Assembly (NCBI GenBank): GCA_027067055.1
Contig: JAMOMK010000022.1
Location: forward strand, 1 to 52,101
DNA: 52,101 nt
Reading direction: 5' to 3'
DNA from: Lysobacterales bacterium
Lineage (GTDB): Bacteria > Pseudomonadota > Gammaproteobacteria > Xanthomonadales > Marinicellaceae
The translations under genes were made by a program, and so were the position numbers. The number at the start of each line of letters is the position of its first letter. Position 1 is the stretch's first letter. Positions 32,465 to 40,941 of the stretch are shown piece after piece. Under the pieces are notes generated by a model, which searched no databases, was not told the origin of the DNA, and saw nothing but the letters and a program-made list of their open reading frames with translations.

Positions 32465-33463
32465 GTGGAATTGGTTTGCCCAGCAGGTAATCTACCATCA
32501 CTAAAAGCCGCTGTTGATAATGGCGCAAATGCTGTCTATATTGGTTTTCAAGATGATACCAATGCACGTCATTTTGCAGGTTTAAATTTTAATGACAAAC
32601 GAGCACAAGCTGGTCTTAGCTATGCCAAAGAACGTGGTGTTAAAATTTTTGCAGCAATCAATACCTATGCACAAACCTCAGGGTTTGAACGTTGGAAAAA
32701 TGCGGTAGATCGTGCAGCTGATTTGCAACTAGATGTTTTGATTTTAGCAGATATTGGCGTCATGGATTATGCTTGTGAACGTTACCCTGAATTGCGCTTA
32801 CATTTATCGGTTCAAGCATCAGCCACCAATCCTGAGGCATTAAATTTTTATCATCGAAATTTCAAGATACAACGAGCCGTGTTACCACGCGTTTTGTCCA
32901 TCAAACAAGTTGAACAAGTGGCACAAGATTCTCCCGTTCCTATTGAAGTTTTTGGTTTTGGCAGTTTATGTGTAATGGTCGAAGGACGTTGTTTGTTGTC
33001 ATCCTATGCAACTGGAAAATCACCCAATACTTACGGAGCGTGCTCGCCTGGCAGTGATGTTCAATGGTTGGAAAAAGATGACGGAGTTTTAGAAACACGT
33101 TTGAATAATGTCTTGATTGATCGTTTTCAGGCAGGTGAAAAAGCTGGTTATCCAACATTATGTAAAGGGCGATTTGAGGTAAAAAACAACACTTATTATG
33201 CCCTAGAAGAGCCAACCAGCCTAAACACATTGTCGGTTTTACCACAATTACAAAAACTTGGTGTTACAGCGATTAAAATCGAAGGCCGACAAAGAAGCCC
33301 TGCCTATGTTGGGCATGTGACTAAAATATTACGCACGGCATTGGATTATTTACGATCAAATCCTGATGATTATTTGGCAAAAGAGGAATGGATGAATGCC
33401 TTATTAAAAGTTTCAGAAGGATCTCAAACCACTTTAGGTGCTTACCATCGACCTTGGCAATAA
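32465..33463 (+). CDS. ubiU: O2-independent ubiquinone biosynthesis protein UbiU
   Basis: A 332-residue U32-family protein. MELVCPAGNLPSLKAAVDNG opens it. The 4Fe-4S cysteines are in FGSLCVMVEGRCLLSS, YGACSPG and YPTLCKGRF; the first is residue 169, the same number I recall for the E. coli cluster ligand. UbiU and UbiV form a complex that hydroxylates the quinone ring without oxygen. Starts with GTG, GGAG upstream. Confidence 0.93.
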   Translation: MELVCPAGNLPSLKAAVDNGANAVYIGFQDDTNARHFAGLNFNDKRAQAGLSYAKERGVKIFAAINTYAQTSGFERWKNAVDRAADLQLDVLILADIGVMDYACERYPELRLHLSVQASATNPEALNFYHRNFKIQRAVLPRVLSIKQVEQVAQDSPVPIEVFGFGSLCVMVEGRCLLSSYATGKSPNTYGACSPGSDVQWLEKDDGVLETRLNNVLIDRFQAGEKAGYPTLCKGRFEVKNNTYYALEEPTSLNTLSVLPQLQKLGVTAIKIEGRQRSPAYVGHVTKILRTALDYLRSNPDDYLAKEEWMNALLKVSEGSQTTLGAYHRPWQ

Positions 33464-33465
33464 AT

Positions 33466-34416
33466 ATGAAAACAAAATTATCATTAGGACCAATAAGTTA
33501 TTATTGGTCAAAACAAAAAATATTCGATTTCTATGACGAAGTGGCAGATAGTGCGATAGATATTGTCTATTTGGGTGAAGTCGTATGTTCAAAACGTTTG
33601 GAAATGAAATTTAACGACTGGATTGAACTTGCAAGGAACTTAAAAAATCGCGGTAAGGTCGTCATTTTATCAACCATGACATTAATTGAGGCAGCATCTG
33701 AACGCTCACGTATGCGGCGTGTATGCGAACAAGATGAATTTTGTGTTGAAGCTAACGACTTTGGTGCGATTGAAATATTATCTCAAGCTGGTAAAAAATT
33801 TATCACAGGAGCTTCCATAAATATCTACAATCAAAGAAGTCTTGCGATTTTACATACTCAAGGAATGAAACGATGGAATCTTTCTGTAGAACTTGGCAAA
33901 AAACAATTAGGACTATTGCAATCAAAAAAAGAGAAGGATATTCAAAGTGAAGTGATGGTCTGGGGCAAAATGCCACTGGCTTATTCAGCTAGATGTTTTA
34001 CTGCTAGGTCACATAATTTACCCAAAGATAATTGTCAGTTTAAATGTATTGATGATGCAGATGGATTGATAATGAAAACTCGTGAAGGGCAAGATTTTTT
34101 GTGTATAAACGGCATACAAACACAATCAGCACTCACTTGTAATCTGATTGACGAAATTAAAACCATGCAACAGTTGAATGTTGATGTGTTACGAATCAGC
34201 CCACAGTCACAACACACCCTCAAAATTATAAATATATTCTCTCAAGCACTTAAAGCCAACAATCAAATCAGGGGCGAGGACAGGGAAAATTTAGATAAAT
34301 TAGCTCCAACTGGTGTCTGTAATGGTTATTGGTTTGGTCAAGCAGGCATGGAAAATACGGTTAAAAACAAAGCAAATCCAATTCCATTAGTTCAAGTTGA
34401 AGCGAGTAAAGTATGA
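33466..34416 (+). CDS. ubiV: O2-independent ubiquinone biosynthesis protein UbiV
   Basis: A 316-residue U32-family partner of UbiU. LSLGPISYYWSKQKIFDFYD at the start and cysteines in GEVVCSKRLEM, YSARCFTAR and DNCQFKCID supply the 4Fe-4S cluster. The ATG at 33466 lies two bases after the ubiU stop; an upstream in-frame extension overlaps ubiU and is non-homologous. Acts with UbiU in anaerobic ring hydroxylation. Overlaps ubiT by 4 bp. Confidence 0.93.
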   Translation: MKTKLSLGPISYYWSKQKIFDFYDEVADSAIDIVYLGEVVCSKRLEMKFNDWIELARNLKNRGKVVILSTMTLIEAASERSRMRRVCEQDEFCVEANDFGAIEILSQAGKKFITGASINIYNQRSLAILHTQGMKRWNLSVELGKKQLGLLQSKKEKDIQSEVMVWGKMPLAYSARCFTARSHNLPKDNCQFKCIDDADGLIMKTREGQDFLCINGIQTQSALTCNLIDEIKTMQQLNVDVLRISPQSQHTLKIINIFSQALKANNQIRGEDRENLDKLAPTGVCNGYWFGQAGMENTVKNKANPIPLVQVEASKV

Positions 34417-34922
34417 ATAACCCAATGATGAATAGTCACCACACTACAAGCAATGGTAATCAACACCTCTTACCAAGTTTACTAGCCAAACCAATCGAAC
34501 TCATCCCTGAAAAAATTCACAGCTCAGTCATTATCAAAGTGTTAAATAAATTGTTGGAACAGGCATTAAAAGACGGTGAGTTAGATTTTCTTGAACAACA
34601 AAGCATTTCGGTTGAAGTTTCTGATTTAAAATTAAAATTTGCTCTTGGCTTAAGCAATGAAAAACTGGTAACAAGCAGATGGAAAAAACAAGATAAACTC
34701 AACTTGTCGGGCAATTTATATGATTTTATGTTGCTTGCCAGCCGTAAAGAAGATTCTGACACCTTGTTTTTTCAACGCCGTTTAAAAATGCAAGGCGATA
34801 CCGATTTGGGCTTGTATGTAAAAAATCTACTCGATGGTATGGATATGGATTCTTTCAAATACCACAAACAATTAGATAGCGTTTTGCATCATGGCATTAA
34901 TTTTTTTGAGAGGTTTTTTTAG
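34413..34922 (+). CDS. ubiT: Ubiquinone biosynthesis accessory factor UbiT (SCP2 domain)
   Basis: A 169-residue protein with an SCP2 lipid-binding fold. Residues 65-150 contain the pattern [20 protein letters not shown] and [20 protein letters not shown] typical of UbiT/YhbT, which carries hydrophobic quinone intermediates in the O2-independent pathway. Coupled to ubiV (ATGA overlap) and ubiD (TAGTG). A short polar N-terminal tail is extra. Confidence 0.9.
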
Positions 34923-36397
34923 TGAATTACAAAAGCCTTAGAGAATTTATTGCAGCTTTGGAACAAATAGGAGAATTAAAACGGGTAAAACAAGAAGTCA
35001 ATCCCAAATTAGAAATGACAGAGTTATGTTACCGAAGCCGTAAAGCAAAAGGACCTGCATTGTTTTTTGAAAATCCAAAAGGTTATAAAATACCCATGAT
35101 AGGCAACCTCTATGGAACAGGAAAAAGAGTAGCGATAGCATTGGGTCAAAAGGAAGTTAAAGACTTGCGTAAAATAGGAGAAGTTTTAGCCTATTTAAAA
35201 ACACCTGCATTACCTAATAACTTGTCAGATGCCTTAAAAGTTTTACCAAAATTCAGAAAACTAGCCCACGTCAATCCAAAAGTTATCACTCAACCCAAAT
35301 GCCAACAAAACATTATTCAAGCCCAAGATGTTGACCTTAATAAATTTCCAATTCAAACGTGTTGGCCAAAAGATGCTGGTAAATTAATAACTTATGGATT
35401 AGTCATTAGCAAAGGACCGCTCAAACAAAGGCAAAATATAGGCATTTACCGAATGCAAGTCATAGCTAAAAATAAAGTCATCATGCGGTGGTTACAACAT
35501 CGAGGAGGTGCATTAGACTTTGCAGAATTTAAACAAAAATACCCTAATAAAAGATTTCCCGTTGTTGTTGCCATTGGCACTGACCCAGCAACACATTTAG
35601 CCGCCGTTTCTCCAATTCCTGATACCATTAGTGAGTACCAGTTTGCAGGACTTATTCGAGGAGCAAAAACCGAAGTTGCTAAAAGTTTACTCCATAGTGA
35701 TTTACATGTGCCAGCACGAGCAGAAATTGTTTTGGAAGGTTATATTGAGCCTGAGGAAACAGCTCTTGAAGGTCCTTTTGGTGACCATACGGGTTATTAT
35801 AATGCTCAAGATTATTATCCTGTTTTTACTATCGAGCGAATTACCCATCGCGATAATCCAATTTACATAAGTGCTTATATGGGCAGACCTCCACATGATG
35901 AGCCTTCAGCCATGGCAGCAGCTTTAAATGAAATGTTTGTGCCTTTACTGCAAGAACAATTTCCTGAGATTGTTGATTTTTATTTGCCTCCAGAGGCTTG
36001 TTCTTACCGCATGGCAGTTGTCAGTATTAAAAAAGCCTATCCAGGACATGCCAAACGCATCATGTTTGGCATATGGTCTTTTCTTAGACAATTTACCTAC
36101 ACAAAATTTATCATCATTACAGATGATGATATTGATGTACGTCAGTGGGATCAAGTGATTTGGGCAATAACTACAAGGACAGATCCAAAAAGAGACAGTA
36201 CAATAATTGAAAATACACCCATTGATTATCTTGATTTTGCCTCACCTATTGCGAGCCTCGGCTCGAAAATGGGTATTGATGCAACCAATAAAGATTCATC
36301 CGAAACAAATCGTGTTTGGGGAGAACCTATTGTAATGAGTACAACGGTCAAAAATAAGATGGATGCTCTTTGGACAGACCTTCAAGAAGATTGTTAA
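34922..36397 (+). CDS. ubiD: 4-hydroxy-3-polyprenylbenzoate decarboxylase UbiD
   Basis: A 491-residue prFMN-dependent decarboxylase of normal length. [27 protein letters not shown], the E-x-R-type ligands in [11 protein letters not shown] and [13 protein letters not shown] are UbiD landmarks. It removes the carboxylate of the polyprenylated ring. The GTG start shares a base with the ubiT stop. Having ubiD in one operon with ubiUVT is not the E. coli layout. The ubiX needed for the cofactor is not in this window. Confidence 0.94.
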
Positions 36398-39045: not shown

Positions 39046-39483
39046 TTAGGAGTGTAGATTAAAGGTAACAGGGCCATCATTGGTTAAGGATACTTGCATG
39101 TCGGCGGCAAAAATCCCCGTTTGTACTTTAATCCCAAGGTCTTTGGCTTGTTGGATAATATAGTTGTACAAATTTTTACTTAATTCTGGATTAGCAGCAC
39201 TCGAAAAACTTGGCCGCAACCCTTTTTGAGTGTTTGCCACTAAGGTAAATTGTGAAACCAGAAGCAGTTCTGATTGAACATCAAGTAGTGATAGGTTCAT
39301 CTTACCTTGAGCATCAGAAAATATCCGATAGTTAACAATTTTTTGCAAAAGTCTATCTGCATTTTCTTCAGAATCATTTTTTTCAACCCCTATAAATGCT
39401 AATATGCCACCAGAAATTTTACCAACTACCTGATTGTTCACATTCACCTGTGCTTGAGAAACTCTTTGTACCAATGCTTTCAT
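39046..39483 (-). CDS. dtd: D-aminoacyl-tRNA deacylase
   Basis: A 145-residue protein of normal Dtd size. MKALVQRVSQAQVNVNNQVV opens it, SQFTLVANTQKG is the SQxT motif and NDGPVTFNLHS carries the NxGPVT motif; both line the active site that hydrolyses D-amino acids or glycine from tRNA. First of a two-gene unit with the gamma-glutamyltransferase. Confidence 0.95.
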   Translation of the reverse strand: MKALVQRVSQAQVNVNNQVVGKISGGILAFIGVEKNDSEENADRLLQKIVNYRIFSDAQGKMNLSLLDVQSELLLVSQFTLVANTQKGLRPSFSSAANPELSKNLYNYIIQQAKDLGIKVQTGIFAADMQVSLTNDGPVTFNLHS

Positions 39484-39515
39484 ACAGATTGTTGACTTAG
39501 TAAAATACTTATTAT

Positions 39516-39544
39516 AAAAAAAAATCTCGACAAGTGGGAGATTT
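39516..39544 (-). terminator. Minus-strand terminator upstream of dtd
   Basis: AAATCTC and GAGATTT (39522-39528, 39538-39544) form a 7-bp stem with a 9-nt loop, followed on the minus strand by a T9 run (39524-39516). It ends a leftward transcript arising from 39.55-39.7 kb, where no convincing gene is seen. Confidence 0.55.
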
Positions 39545-39590
39545 AATCAAATTAGACACTATATAGTTAGGAACACTTAATATAGTGCTT

Positions 39591-39640
39591 AAGGAGCCTC
39601 TGAAAAATAGAAAAATATCTACTTTTTTCAGTAACTCCTT
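39591..39640. repeat. 50-bp inverted-repeat footprint
   Basis: AAGGAG-CCT-CTGAAAAA (39591-39607) is the inverse of TTTTTCAG-TAA-CTCCTT (39624-39640) at 14 of 17 bases, with a 16-nt loop. GGAGNNNCTGAAAA resembles the ends of small insertion sequences, so it may be an internally deleted element. It could also be the body of a structured minus-strand RNA ending at 39516. Confidence 0.5.
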
Positions 39641-39730
39641 ATTTGACTGAGATAACTTTACTGCTACGTAGTAGGAAACAAGATAAATCATCTCTCTCAC
39701 ATACAATGATTTATTCTGTTTTATTTGGTG

Positions 39731-39760
39731 TTCCTACACTTTGTAGGAAATTTCCTACAA
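39731..39760 (+). promoter_or_regulatory. GacA/LetA-like upstream activating palindrome
   Basis: TTGTAGGAAATTTCCTACAA (39741-39760) is a perfect 20-bp palindrome fitting the GacA-type consensus TGTAAG-N6-CTTACA with a symmetric A to G change. A third half-site TTCCTACA at 39731-39738 overlaps in inverse. It lies about 50-60 bp upstream of the likely start of the GGA-rich RNA, the usual distance in rsmY/rsmZ-type genes. Confidence 0.72.
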
Positions 39761-39799
39761 ACAAAGAGTAATTTGCCGCTGTTATTATTTTTTAATAAA

Positions 39800-40001
39800 T
39801 GGATAATGGTTTTGTTAAAGGAAACAAATCGAAGGAAGGATTTGTAGTGTCAAACAAGGATAAATGGATGTTTTGTGCAAGACACCAAGTCTACCGCGTA
39901 GGATGGCAGTGATTTGACAAATGGATTTGTAATTCGGGGAAAAGGATATGGTCAGGAAGACCAAATTTTTAAACCGTCAGTTTATCTGACGGTTTTTTTT
40001 T
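39800..40001 (+). ncRNA. CsrB/RsmZ-type CsrA-sequestering small RNA (predicted)
   Basis: No convincing frame, yet eleven GGA motifs occur between 39801 and 39957 (at 39801, 39820, 39834, 39838, 39858, 39866, 39901, 39923, 39938, 39944 and 39955), mostly as AAGGA, ATGGA or CAGGA, the CsrA/RsmA binding core. A strong rho-independent terminator follows and a GacA-like palindrome precedes. TAATAA (39793-39798) or TATTAT (39783-39788) could be the -10. The RNA would be about 200 nt and would titrate CsrA. Family identity is inferred from architecture; the exact 5' end is unknown. Confidence 0.8.
39971..40001 (+). terminator. Terminator of the GGA-rich RNA
   Basis: AAACCGTCAG and CTGACGGTTT form a perfect 10-bp stem with loop TTTAT, followed by a run of T to about 40001. 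No plus-strand coding gene ends within 2 kb upstream, so it must serve a non-coding transcript. Confidence 0.9.
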
Positions 40002-40074
40002 GTAATAAAGCTTTTCAACTTCCAAAAACTTACAACTATCTATATTATTAAATTCTTTTCCGTTCTAAAACAAA

Positions 40075-40941
40075 TTGAAAGCTATTCTGTTTAATTTAAT
40101 TCTAAAATTGTCACAGCACATGTCGTTGGCTAAAAGCCGATCTTTGGCACGTTTTTTTGGCCGTCTTATGTGGAAATATTCAACAAAAAATAAGCATGTT
40201 ACTTTAACCAATATTCAAAAATGTTATCCCAAACTTTCATCCCAAGAACAAAATAAAAGAGCTCAACTCAGTATCAATGCAGCATTAATGAATTTTTTTG
40301 AATTGGGATGCTTATGGAAGAAGCAAACAAAAATTGAAAACCTTATAGGAAAAATTAATGGCATTAATGAGTTTCAACAAGCACTTGATGAAGGAAAAGG
40401 CTTATTGTTAGCTGCTCCACACATGGGTAACTGGGAGGTTTTGAACTTGGTTTTGGCTCGCTTTGACAAGTTTGCTTTTTTATATAAACCACCATCAGAT
40501 AAAAAAGTTGAGGATTTGTTAGTTAAATACCGAGGAAAGTCAAAAGCAGTACAAATTGAAGCCAATTTAAAAGGTGTGCGTAAAATAATGACCCACCTAA
40601 AAGATAAGGGGTTTATTGCCATTTTACCAGATCAACGCCCAAAATCTGGACAAGGAGAGTTTGCTGACTTTTACGGCATACCCACCTATACCATGACATT
40701 GTTTTCAAGGCTTGCAGCGAAAACAAAAGTACCTGTATTTTTTGCCTATGCACTACGAACACAAAACGGCTTTGAGGTCACTTTTGAAAAAAGCGATAAA
40801 GACATCTATGGAGATAGTAAAACCTCTGTTGCTTATATGAATAAAAAAATACAATCAATTGTTGATAAAGCACCAGAACAATACCAGTGGACTTATAAAC
40901 GGTTCAGTATTCAACCAGAAGGTGAATCTCATTTTTATTGA
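40075..40941 (+). CDS. LpxL/HtrB-family lysophospholipid (lipid A) acyltransferase
   Basis: A 288-residue membrane-associated acyltransferase. AAPHMGNWEVLN holds the HxxxxE catalytic motif, with FLYKPPSDKKVEDLL and AILPDQRPKSGQGEFADFYG as later family blocks. It adds a secondary acyl chain to lipid A or a related lipid at the inner membrane. The start is TTG at 40075, giving MKAILFNLILKL as in relatives; ATG at 40120 would cut off the first helix. Convergent overlap of 7 bp with the SEL1 gene. Confidence 0.87.
   Translation: MKAILFNLILKLSQHMSLAKSRSLARFFGRLMWKYSTKNKHVTLTNIQKCYPKLSSQEQNKRAQLSINAALMNFFELGCLWKKQTKIENLIGKINGINEFQQALDEGKGLLLAAPHMGNWEVLNLVLARFDKFAFLYKPPSDKKVEDLLVKYRGKSKAVQIEANLKGVRKIMTHLKDKGFIAILPDQRPKSGQGEFADFYGIPTYTMTLFSRLAAKTKVPVFFAYALRTQNGFEVTFEKSDKDIYGDSKTSVAYMNKKIQSIVDKAPEQYQWTYKRFSIQPEGESHFY

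Follow-up and report, generated by a model that had tools for sequence, protein, structure and literature searches.

A candidate UvrY-activated, CsrA-sequestering small RNA between dtd and an acyltransferase gene in a member of the Lysobacterales

CsrA acts globally as a post-transcriptional switch; the sponge RNAs that bind it show where a lineage puts this switch under signal control. A 52,101-nucleotide stretch of DNA from a Lysobacterales bacterium (the window, meaning the whole stretch that was analysed) raises the question of whether one of its intergenic regions, at positions 39731–40001, encodes such an RNA. A first-pass annotation made from the letters alone had read this region as a CsrA-titrating RNA under GacA-type control. 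The analysis described here supports that reading by the conservation of the GGA motifs, the presence of CsrA and of a probable UvrY orthologue, and the fixed spacing of the −10 element. Judged from sequence, the locus is very probably a stand-alone gene for a UvrY-activated small RNA that sequesters CsrA.

The intergenic locus and its GGA motifs

The region lies between dtd and an LpxL/HtrB-like acyltransferase gene, which are divergently oriented. No open reading frame of at least 60 amino acids was found within 39731–40001 on either strand, in keeping with the earlier remark that no coding gene precedes the terminator. The features of the locus are the following:

39046–39483, minus strand: dtd, D-aminoacyl-tRNA deacylase (TIGR00256, 200 bits, cut-off 101.5)
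39731–39738, minus strand: half-site, TTCCTACA on the plus strand and TGTAGGAA on the minus strand (from the sequence), 3 bp upstream of the 18-bp inverted repeat
39741–39760, no strand: exact 20-bp palindrome TTGTAGGAAATTTCCTACAA, containing the 18-bp TGTAGG-N6-CCTACA; predicted UvrY/GacA-type upstream activating site
39802–39807, plus strand: −10-like GATAAT; distance to the centre of the palindrome, 51 bp
39814–40001, plus strand: predicted non-coding RNA of about 185 nt with 10 GGA (GGA positions, genus counterparts, fold z-score)
39971–40001, plus strand: intrinsic terminator, 10-bp stem and T-run (sequence, fold)
40075–40941, plus strand: LpxL/HtrB-like acyltransferase (PF03279, 120 bits, cut-off 22.3)

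The perfect 20-bp palindrome that had been reported is exact, and none of 100 shuffles produced one; the window's genome has a single exact copy, and three places that match with up to three mismatches. The 18-bp inverted repeat within it, TGTAGGAAATTTCCTACA, can be called a variant of the known consensus, since it agrees at 10 of the 12 specified bases with TGTAAGN6CTTACA, the UvrY site given in the available text of PMC4682653, and has the same 6-N6-6 architecture; its half-site reads TGTAGG where the consensus has TGTAAG. Control by UvrY/GacA is suggested by this similarity. A third half-site, previously described as overlapping the palindrome, is indeed present, but it does not overlap, being separated from the 18-bp repeat by 3 bp. 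Transcription of the candidate RNA would start at about 39814, and the stretch that follows GATAAT is G/A-rich and carries GGA motifs up to the terminator.

The motif GGA occurs at 39801, 39820, 39834, 39838, 39858, 39866, 39901, 39923, 39938, 39944 and 39955, that is 11 times in 157 nt, exactly as had been counted; given that the first of these overlaps the −10-like GATAAT, the predicted transcript has 10 and not 11. This is the densest such stretch in the window on both strands, the next best having 8, and the maximum count over 100 shuffles of the whole window was 10 on either strand. The window mean is 1.3 per 157 nt. The claim that about two GGA would be expected overstates how extreme the count is once the local G/A-rich composition is kept: when the surrounding 163 nt were shuffled with their dinucleotides preserved, the average was 5.6, and 3 of 5000 shuffles reached 11. 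The GGA density exceeds chance.

Ahead of dtd, the minus strand carries TATAAT and CTCCCACTT at 39511–39540, elements recognised by eye in 7 of the 11 genus loci. They probably make up a promoter for dtd that does not involve the palindrome. Elsewhere in the window, three successive plus-strand ORFs at 33388–36397 resemble, also by eye, ubiquinone genes (U32 peptidase-like, SCP2-like and UbiD-like).

Conservation and structure of the RNA in the genus

When 61 genomes were searched with a 302-base query, the locus turned up in all 10 other genomes of the genus included in this set, so that each of the 11 genus genomes has the arrangement; a twelfth genome matching the query, G058, has the palindrome alone in common. 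In every genus locus dtd lies divergently upstream of the RNA, and this linkage was used as a marker of counterpart loci. On the other side, an acyltransferase gene stands 3' of the palindrome in the window and in nine of the ten named contigs whose acyltransferase is closely related to it (63–82% identical), at a distance of 309–552 bp from the palindrome in the named contigs. The tenth contig (L053) encodes an acyltransferase that is 67% identical, with no palindrome before it. In G002 the RNA is kept, and the next ORF is convergent instead of the acyltransferase.

The palindrome is intact in 10 of the 11 loci, the exception being that of G002, where the repeat has a 7-bp spacer. In all ten, [GC]ATAAT begins at a constant 51 bp from the centre of the palindrome (51.5 in G002), and TTCCTA exactly 11 bp upstream of the repeat. 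The latter count was read from the listed loci, a stricter scripted motif having flagged 7 of 10, and it omits two rows, one each for G005 and G048, that merely give the palindrome on the opposite strand. TTCCTA is absent from the G002 locus. With its degenerate palindrome and no UvrY found, G002 was considered as a case of natural loss, and was set aside as not decisive, given that the uvrY-neighbouring gene was likewise not found.

Conservation of the GGA motifs in relatives, on which the first-pass annotation had staked its reading, is clear: 8 of the 10 recur, with a tolerance of 4 columns, in no fewer than 9 of the 11 sequences, while the GGA at 39858 is kept in 7 and that at 39838 is present in the window's genome alone. 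Invariant columns amount to 17 of 30 for the GGA motifs versus 20 of 129 for the others (Fisher p 9e-6), a p value that is too optimistic because five of the sequences fall in two close clusters (G003, G004 and G009, 97–98% identical; G001 and G005, 93% identical).

Folding of 39791–40001 gave a z-score of −2.77, and 3 of 200 shuffles were equally stable. In the minimum-free-energy fold of the window's RNA, hairpin loops fully enclose 5 of the 10 GGA, and one more is in open sequence; this agrees with the expectation that GGAs should be found in loops, but the number varies among the predicted folds of the relatives, several of which place GGAs in stems. The predicted hairpins, all on the plus strand, are:

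39824–39845: hairpin A, GGA 39834 in the loop (minimum-free-energy fold)
39847–39885: hairpin B, GGA 39866 in the loop (minimum-free-energy fold)
39886–39916: hairpin C, CGTAGGA (CGUAGGA in RNA) in the loop (fold and alignment)
39917–39930: hairpin D, GGA 39923 in the loop (minimum-free-energy fold)
39942–39970: hairpin E, GGA 39955 in the loop (fold and alignment)

Hairpin C shows changes on both sides in three of its four inner pairs. For hairpin E this is true of one of four, and two of the four are disrupted in G001 and G005 as aligned here. The strong terminator noted earlier was recovered as AAACCGTCAG-TTTAT-CTGACGGTTT followed by a T-run; its nine modelled pairs form in all 11 genus sequences, three of them with both-sided changes. 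Over the 3' part of the RNA, both-sided changes affect 7 of 17 consensus pairs, and 97.9% of the alignment cells pair, against at most 57% in slid versions, a test that favours the consensus structure since this was derived from the same alignment. The covariation score was reached by none of 500 shuffles, and another covariation measure, the number of further pair types, by 94 of 500. Within this model, hairpin C and the terminator are the best-supported structural elements.

The Rfam models gave no match to a Csr/Rsm family in the window at the gathering score. None of the 11 matches obtained at E values up to 10 for 39485–40130, nor of the six obtained at E up to 1 for 13 relative loci, came from such a family, and the weak matches at high E-value, belonging to unrelated families, were discarded. 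For this reason the earlier label, CsrB/RsmZ-type, is valid for the architecture alone, and by its sequence the predicted RNA is most likely a new family of a known kind. A covariance model (R1) of the 3' part of the RNA, with 115 positions and built from the 11 genus sequences themselves, was run on 33 family genomes; it scored 86–132 bits in 11 of 11 genus genomes, its own training sequences. Of its next 19 loci (L161–L179), 18 have no palindrome and show a terminator-like hairpin at the match, and one, L174, is the locus of G027, where the palindrome is present. The R1 match at the G016 locus was weak (21.7 bits). Since R1 fails to reach genus g3 reliably, the promoter pattern was searched instead.

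Palindromes were also seen at other places in the genus. A near-palindrome, TGTAGGAAATTTCATACA, is located upstream of a gpmI-like (phosphoglycerate mutase) gene, identified by eye, in two genus genomes (G000:C131:33532–33551, L044; and L016 of G008), and the same regulator may thus act directly on this gene too. In G006 the palindrome is present in three further copies (L021, L024 and L227, on C94, C24 and C29), each with CATAAT at 51 bp and none accompanied by a GGA-rich terminated RNA; the copy on C24 is followed by a 109-residue ORF. It seems that in G006 the sponge promoter was copied to other genes.

Distribution beyond the genus

In g3, a genus of the same family, the promoter-pattern search found the palindrome together with a GGA-rich terminated stretch in 5 of 18 genomes, with 9–10 GGA each in G012, G014, G016 and G018 and 6 in G028; CATAAT at 52 bp is present in three of these five loci. 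The locus of G027 keeps the palindrome, CATAAT and the terminator, with 3 GGA, and in the remaining g3 genomes an exact match to the palindrome is missing or located elsewhere. In g4, of the same family, palindrome, GGA stretch and terminator occur together in two of three genomes (G013 and G015). The neighbourhood is partly retained: an acyltransferase gene lies 3' of the RNA in G012, and palindrome and RNA stand before dtd in G013, while in G015 the next ORF is convergent. The combination of palindrome, GGA stretch and terminator is also seen in family f7, where the stretches of G038 and G048, with 13 and 16 GGA per 160 nt, adjoin dtd, and that of G038 is followed by an acyltransferase gene.

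A survey upstream of dtd covered 27 dtd loci in 30 genomes, dtd being placed by script in 18 loci and by match coordinates in 9. Palindrome and GGA-rich stretch were found together in three of the 27 (G013, G038 and G048). Two loci of family f5, L191 of G036 and L195 of G047, have 9 and 8 GGA per 160 nt; the repeat is not intact, and the half-sites TCCTACA and CTTACA remain. By eye, G047 has a GGA in the loop of a terminator-like hairpin. These two stretches are likely diverged counterparts of the RNA. The 8 and 7 GGA upstream of dtd in G034 and G043 were discounted, as they are apparently (by eye) inside an acyltransferase gene.

By a rule of our own, a GGA-rich stretch followed by a terminator was found at none of 12 further palindrome sites in g1 and 10 in g3. 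The site at G026:C133 has 8 GGA per 160 nt and no terminator. Across the order, the promoter pattern matched 45 of 398 genomes, and the reversed pattern, used as a control, gave 4 matches in 3 genomes. The follow-up comprised 32 loci from 31 matching genomes outside f1 and f7, with some second sites in G361, G306 and G223 left out. A simple rule, at least 4 GGA before a terminator, picked out 5 of the 32 loci (G306, G217, G235, G162 and G223); the same rule missed the visible terminator of G015. An open frame of at least 60 codons overlaps all five loci, so that they may be coding.

Some further sites were seen in family f12. Six loci (L258–L263, in g25 and g54) combine the palindrome with a conserved CTAGACT and GGA repeats, and in five of them a small ORF follows that, by eye, starts like a UbiK-type protein. 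No T-run terminator was found at L258–L263, hence these are perhaps CsrA-bound leaders. At L269 and L270 (g57) the palindrome is followed by a short stretch with 4 GGA, the last in the terminator loop, possibly a very short sponge RNA.

It is conceivable, at a little under even chances, that an unrecognised group of CsrA sponges spans the order of the organism, probably Lysobacterales/Xanthomonadales, mostly under UvrY-type sites, with a dtd-linked core in f1, f5 and f7. In this proposal, the occurrence of the dtd-linked type in these three families would make it older than them, and additional short types, part of them with a GGA in the loop of the terminator, may exist in f12 and f2.

Regulators, rival readings and known systems

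The window's genome has one CsrA homologue, above the cut-off (118.7 versus 73 bits), as the earlier reading required; its gene adjoins an alaS-like ORF (by eye). A response regulator of the same genome matches the UvrY/SirA/GacA family (NF007018) with 256 bits, where the curated cut-off is 280 and the next family scores 150, and its gene adjoins, again by eye, a GAPDH-like gene. It is probably the UvrY orthologue. The sequences directly show the parts of the locus and how these are conserved, and they show that the genome encodes CsrA and this probable orthologue. Within the genus, CsrA was found in 8 of 11 genomes (not in G001, G006 and G007), and a UvrY match of at least 250 bits in 9 of 11, with no clear UvrY in G002 and G004. 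All five of these genomes are assemblies of 310–680 contigs, and in G004 a contig ends within the GAPDH-like gene, on the flank where uvrY would be expected. A hybrid kinase with HisKA, HATPase, receiver and Hpt domains is also present; it scores equally with TorS and is not assignable as BarA. G011, which belongs to another genus of the family and is assembled in 2 contigs, has neither the RNA nor dtd, and neither CsrA nor a clear UvrY; this joint absence, a single case, is consistent with the reading given here.

In the proposed mechanism, a hybrid sensor kinase would phosphorylate the UvrY/GacA-family response regulator. This regulator would occupy the 18-bp inverted repeat, whose centre lies some 63 bp before the transcription start, possibly together with the half-site next to it, and would activate the promoter with the −10 GATAAT. 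Transcription up to the intrinsic terminator would give an RNA of about 185 nt; with the GGAs in its hairpin loops, this RNA may bind several CsrA dimers and so draw CsrA away from its mRNA targets. We infer transcription, the binding of UvrY and of CsrA, and sequestration from the layout of the locus.

Other readings have to be considered. The same-strand acyltransferase gene downstream of the RNA, in the window and in nine of ten named contigs and likewise in G012 and, in another family, in G038, would fit a cis-acting 5' leader (attenuator) of the acyltransferase mRNA, regulated by CsrA, and not a free RNA. We consider this improbable, as a strong conserved terminator separates the two, the next ORF is convergent in G002, which keeps the RNA, and in G015, and the acyltransferase gene of L053 has no palindrome before it; in addition, a single CsrA-regulated leader usually has fewer than the ten GGA found here. 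That the stretch is simply purine-rich intergenic DNA with no RNA function is hardly credible: a few local shuffles do reach its GGA count (3 of 5000), but the conservation of the GGAs, the compensatory changes in the hairpins, the fixed promoter spacing, the terminator and the conserved neighbourhood all stand against it. A base-pairing (Hfq-type) small RNA in which the GGAs are incidental is very improbable; some base-pairing RNAs have GGAs and bind CsrA, according to the available text of PMC7652899, but the ten GGA, five of which lie in loops and whose columns are better conserved than the others, speak for CsrA as the binding partner.

A small yet real chance remains that the RNA is a CsrA sponge and the palindrome is used by a regulator other than UvrY. 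The deviation of TGTAGG from TGTAAG, the failure to find UvrY in G002 and G004, and the many other response-regulator matches in these genomes would favour this. Against it are the shared 6-N6-6 architecture with 10 of 12 consensus bases, the mixed repeat sites that occur in g3, such as TGTAGGAAATTTCTTACA, and the contig end of G004, which cuts the uvrY-neighbouring gene on the uvrY side. The E. coli csrB promoter itself, as described in the available part of PMC4682653, has TGTAGGAGA beside its repeat. A UvrY-activated sponge of CsrA is the reading we retain.

The candidate RNA resembles RsmX, RsmY and RsmZ of Pseudomonas and CsrB and CsrC of Enterobacteria in its many GGAs, several in hairpin loops, in its intrinsic terminator, and in being an intergenic gene of its own with an 18-bp inverted repeat upstream; RsmZ and RsmY are the nearest to it in size and GGA number. 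It is distinguished from all of these by matching no Rfam model, by the half-site TGTAGG and by its dtd/acyltransferase neighbourhood. The predicted site is at about −63, in contrast with −183 in E. coli csrB (PMC4682653, available part). As in the csrB promoter, the inverted repeat is accompanied by an extra half-site; that of csrB is located 5 bp downstream of the repeat (same source), whereas here it is 3 bp upstream, on the minus strand, with the TTCCTA core kept.

Closer to the organism, RsmU of Xanthomonas campestris, whose genus is probably of the same order, is processed from an mRNA 3' end, and its long form has 4 GGA, as stated in the available text of PMC7694677. Like RsmU, the RNA described here is a small RNA outside Rfam, predicted to bind RsmA/CsrA; unlike it, it has a predicted separate promoter and 10 GGA. 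Among the papers listed by searches of the open-licence literature, none described the RNA, nor any Csr RNA driven by UvrY in the group of the organism. The candidate gains interest from the published search, reported in the available part of PMC7694677, that found no homologue of CsrB or RsmX/Y/Z in Xanthomonas. If the organism belongs, as is probable, to the same order as Xanthomonas, a sponge gene under a UvrY-type promoter would supply the missing Gac/Csr arm there. The locus also provides an alignment to seed new models, together with a promoter signature and a characteristic gene neighbourhood, with which RNAs that sequence models miss can be found.
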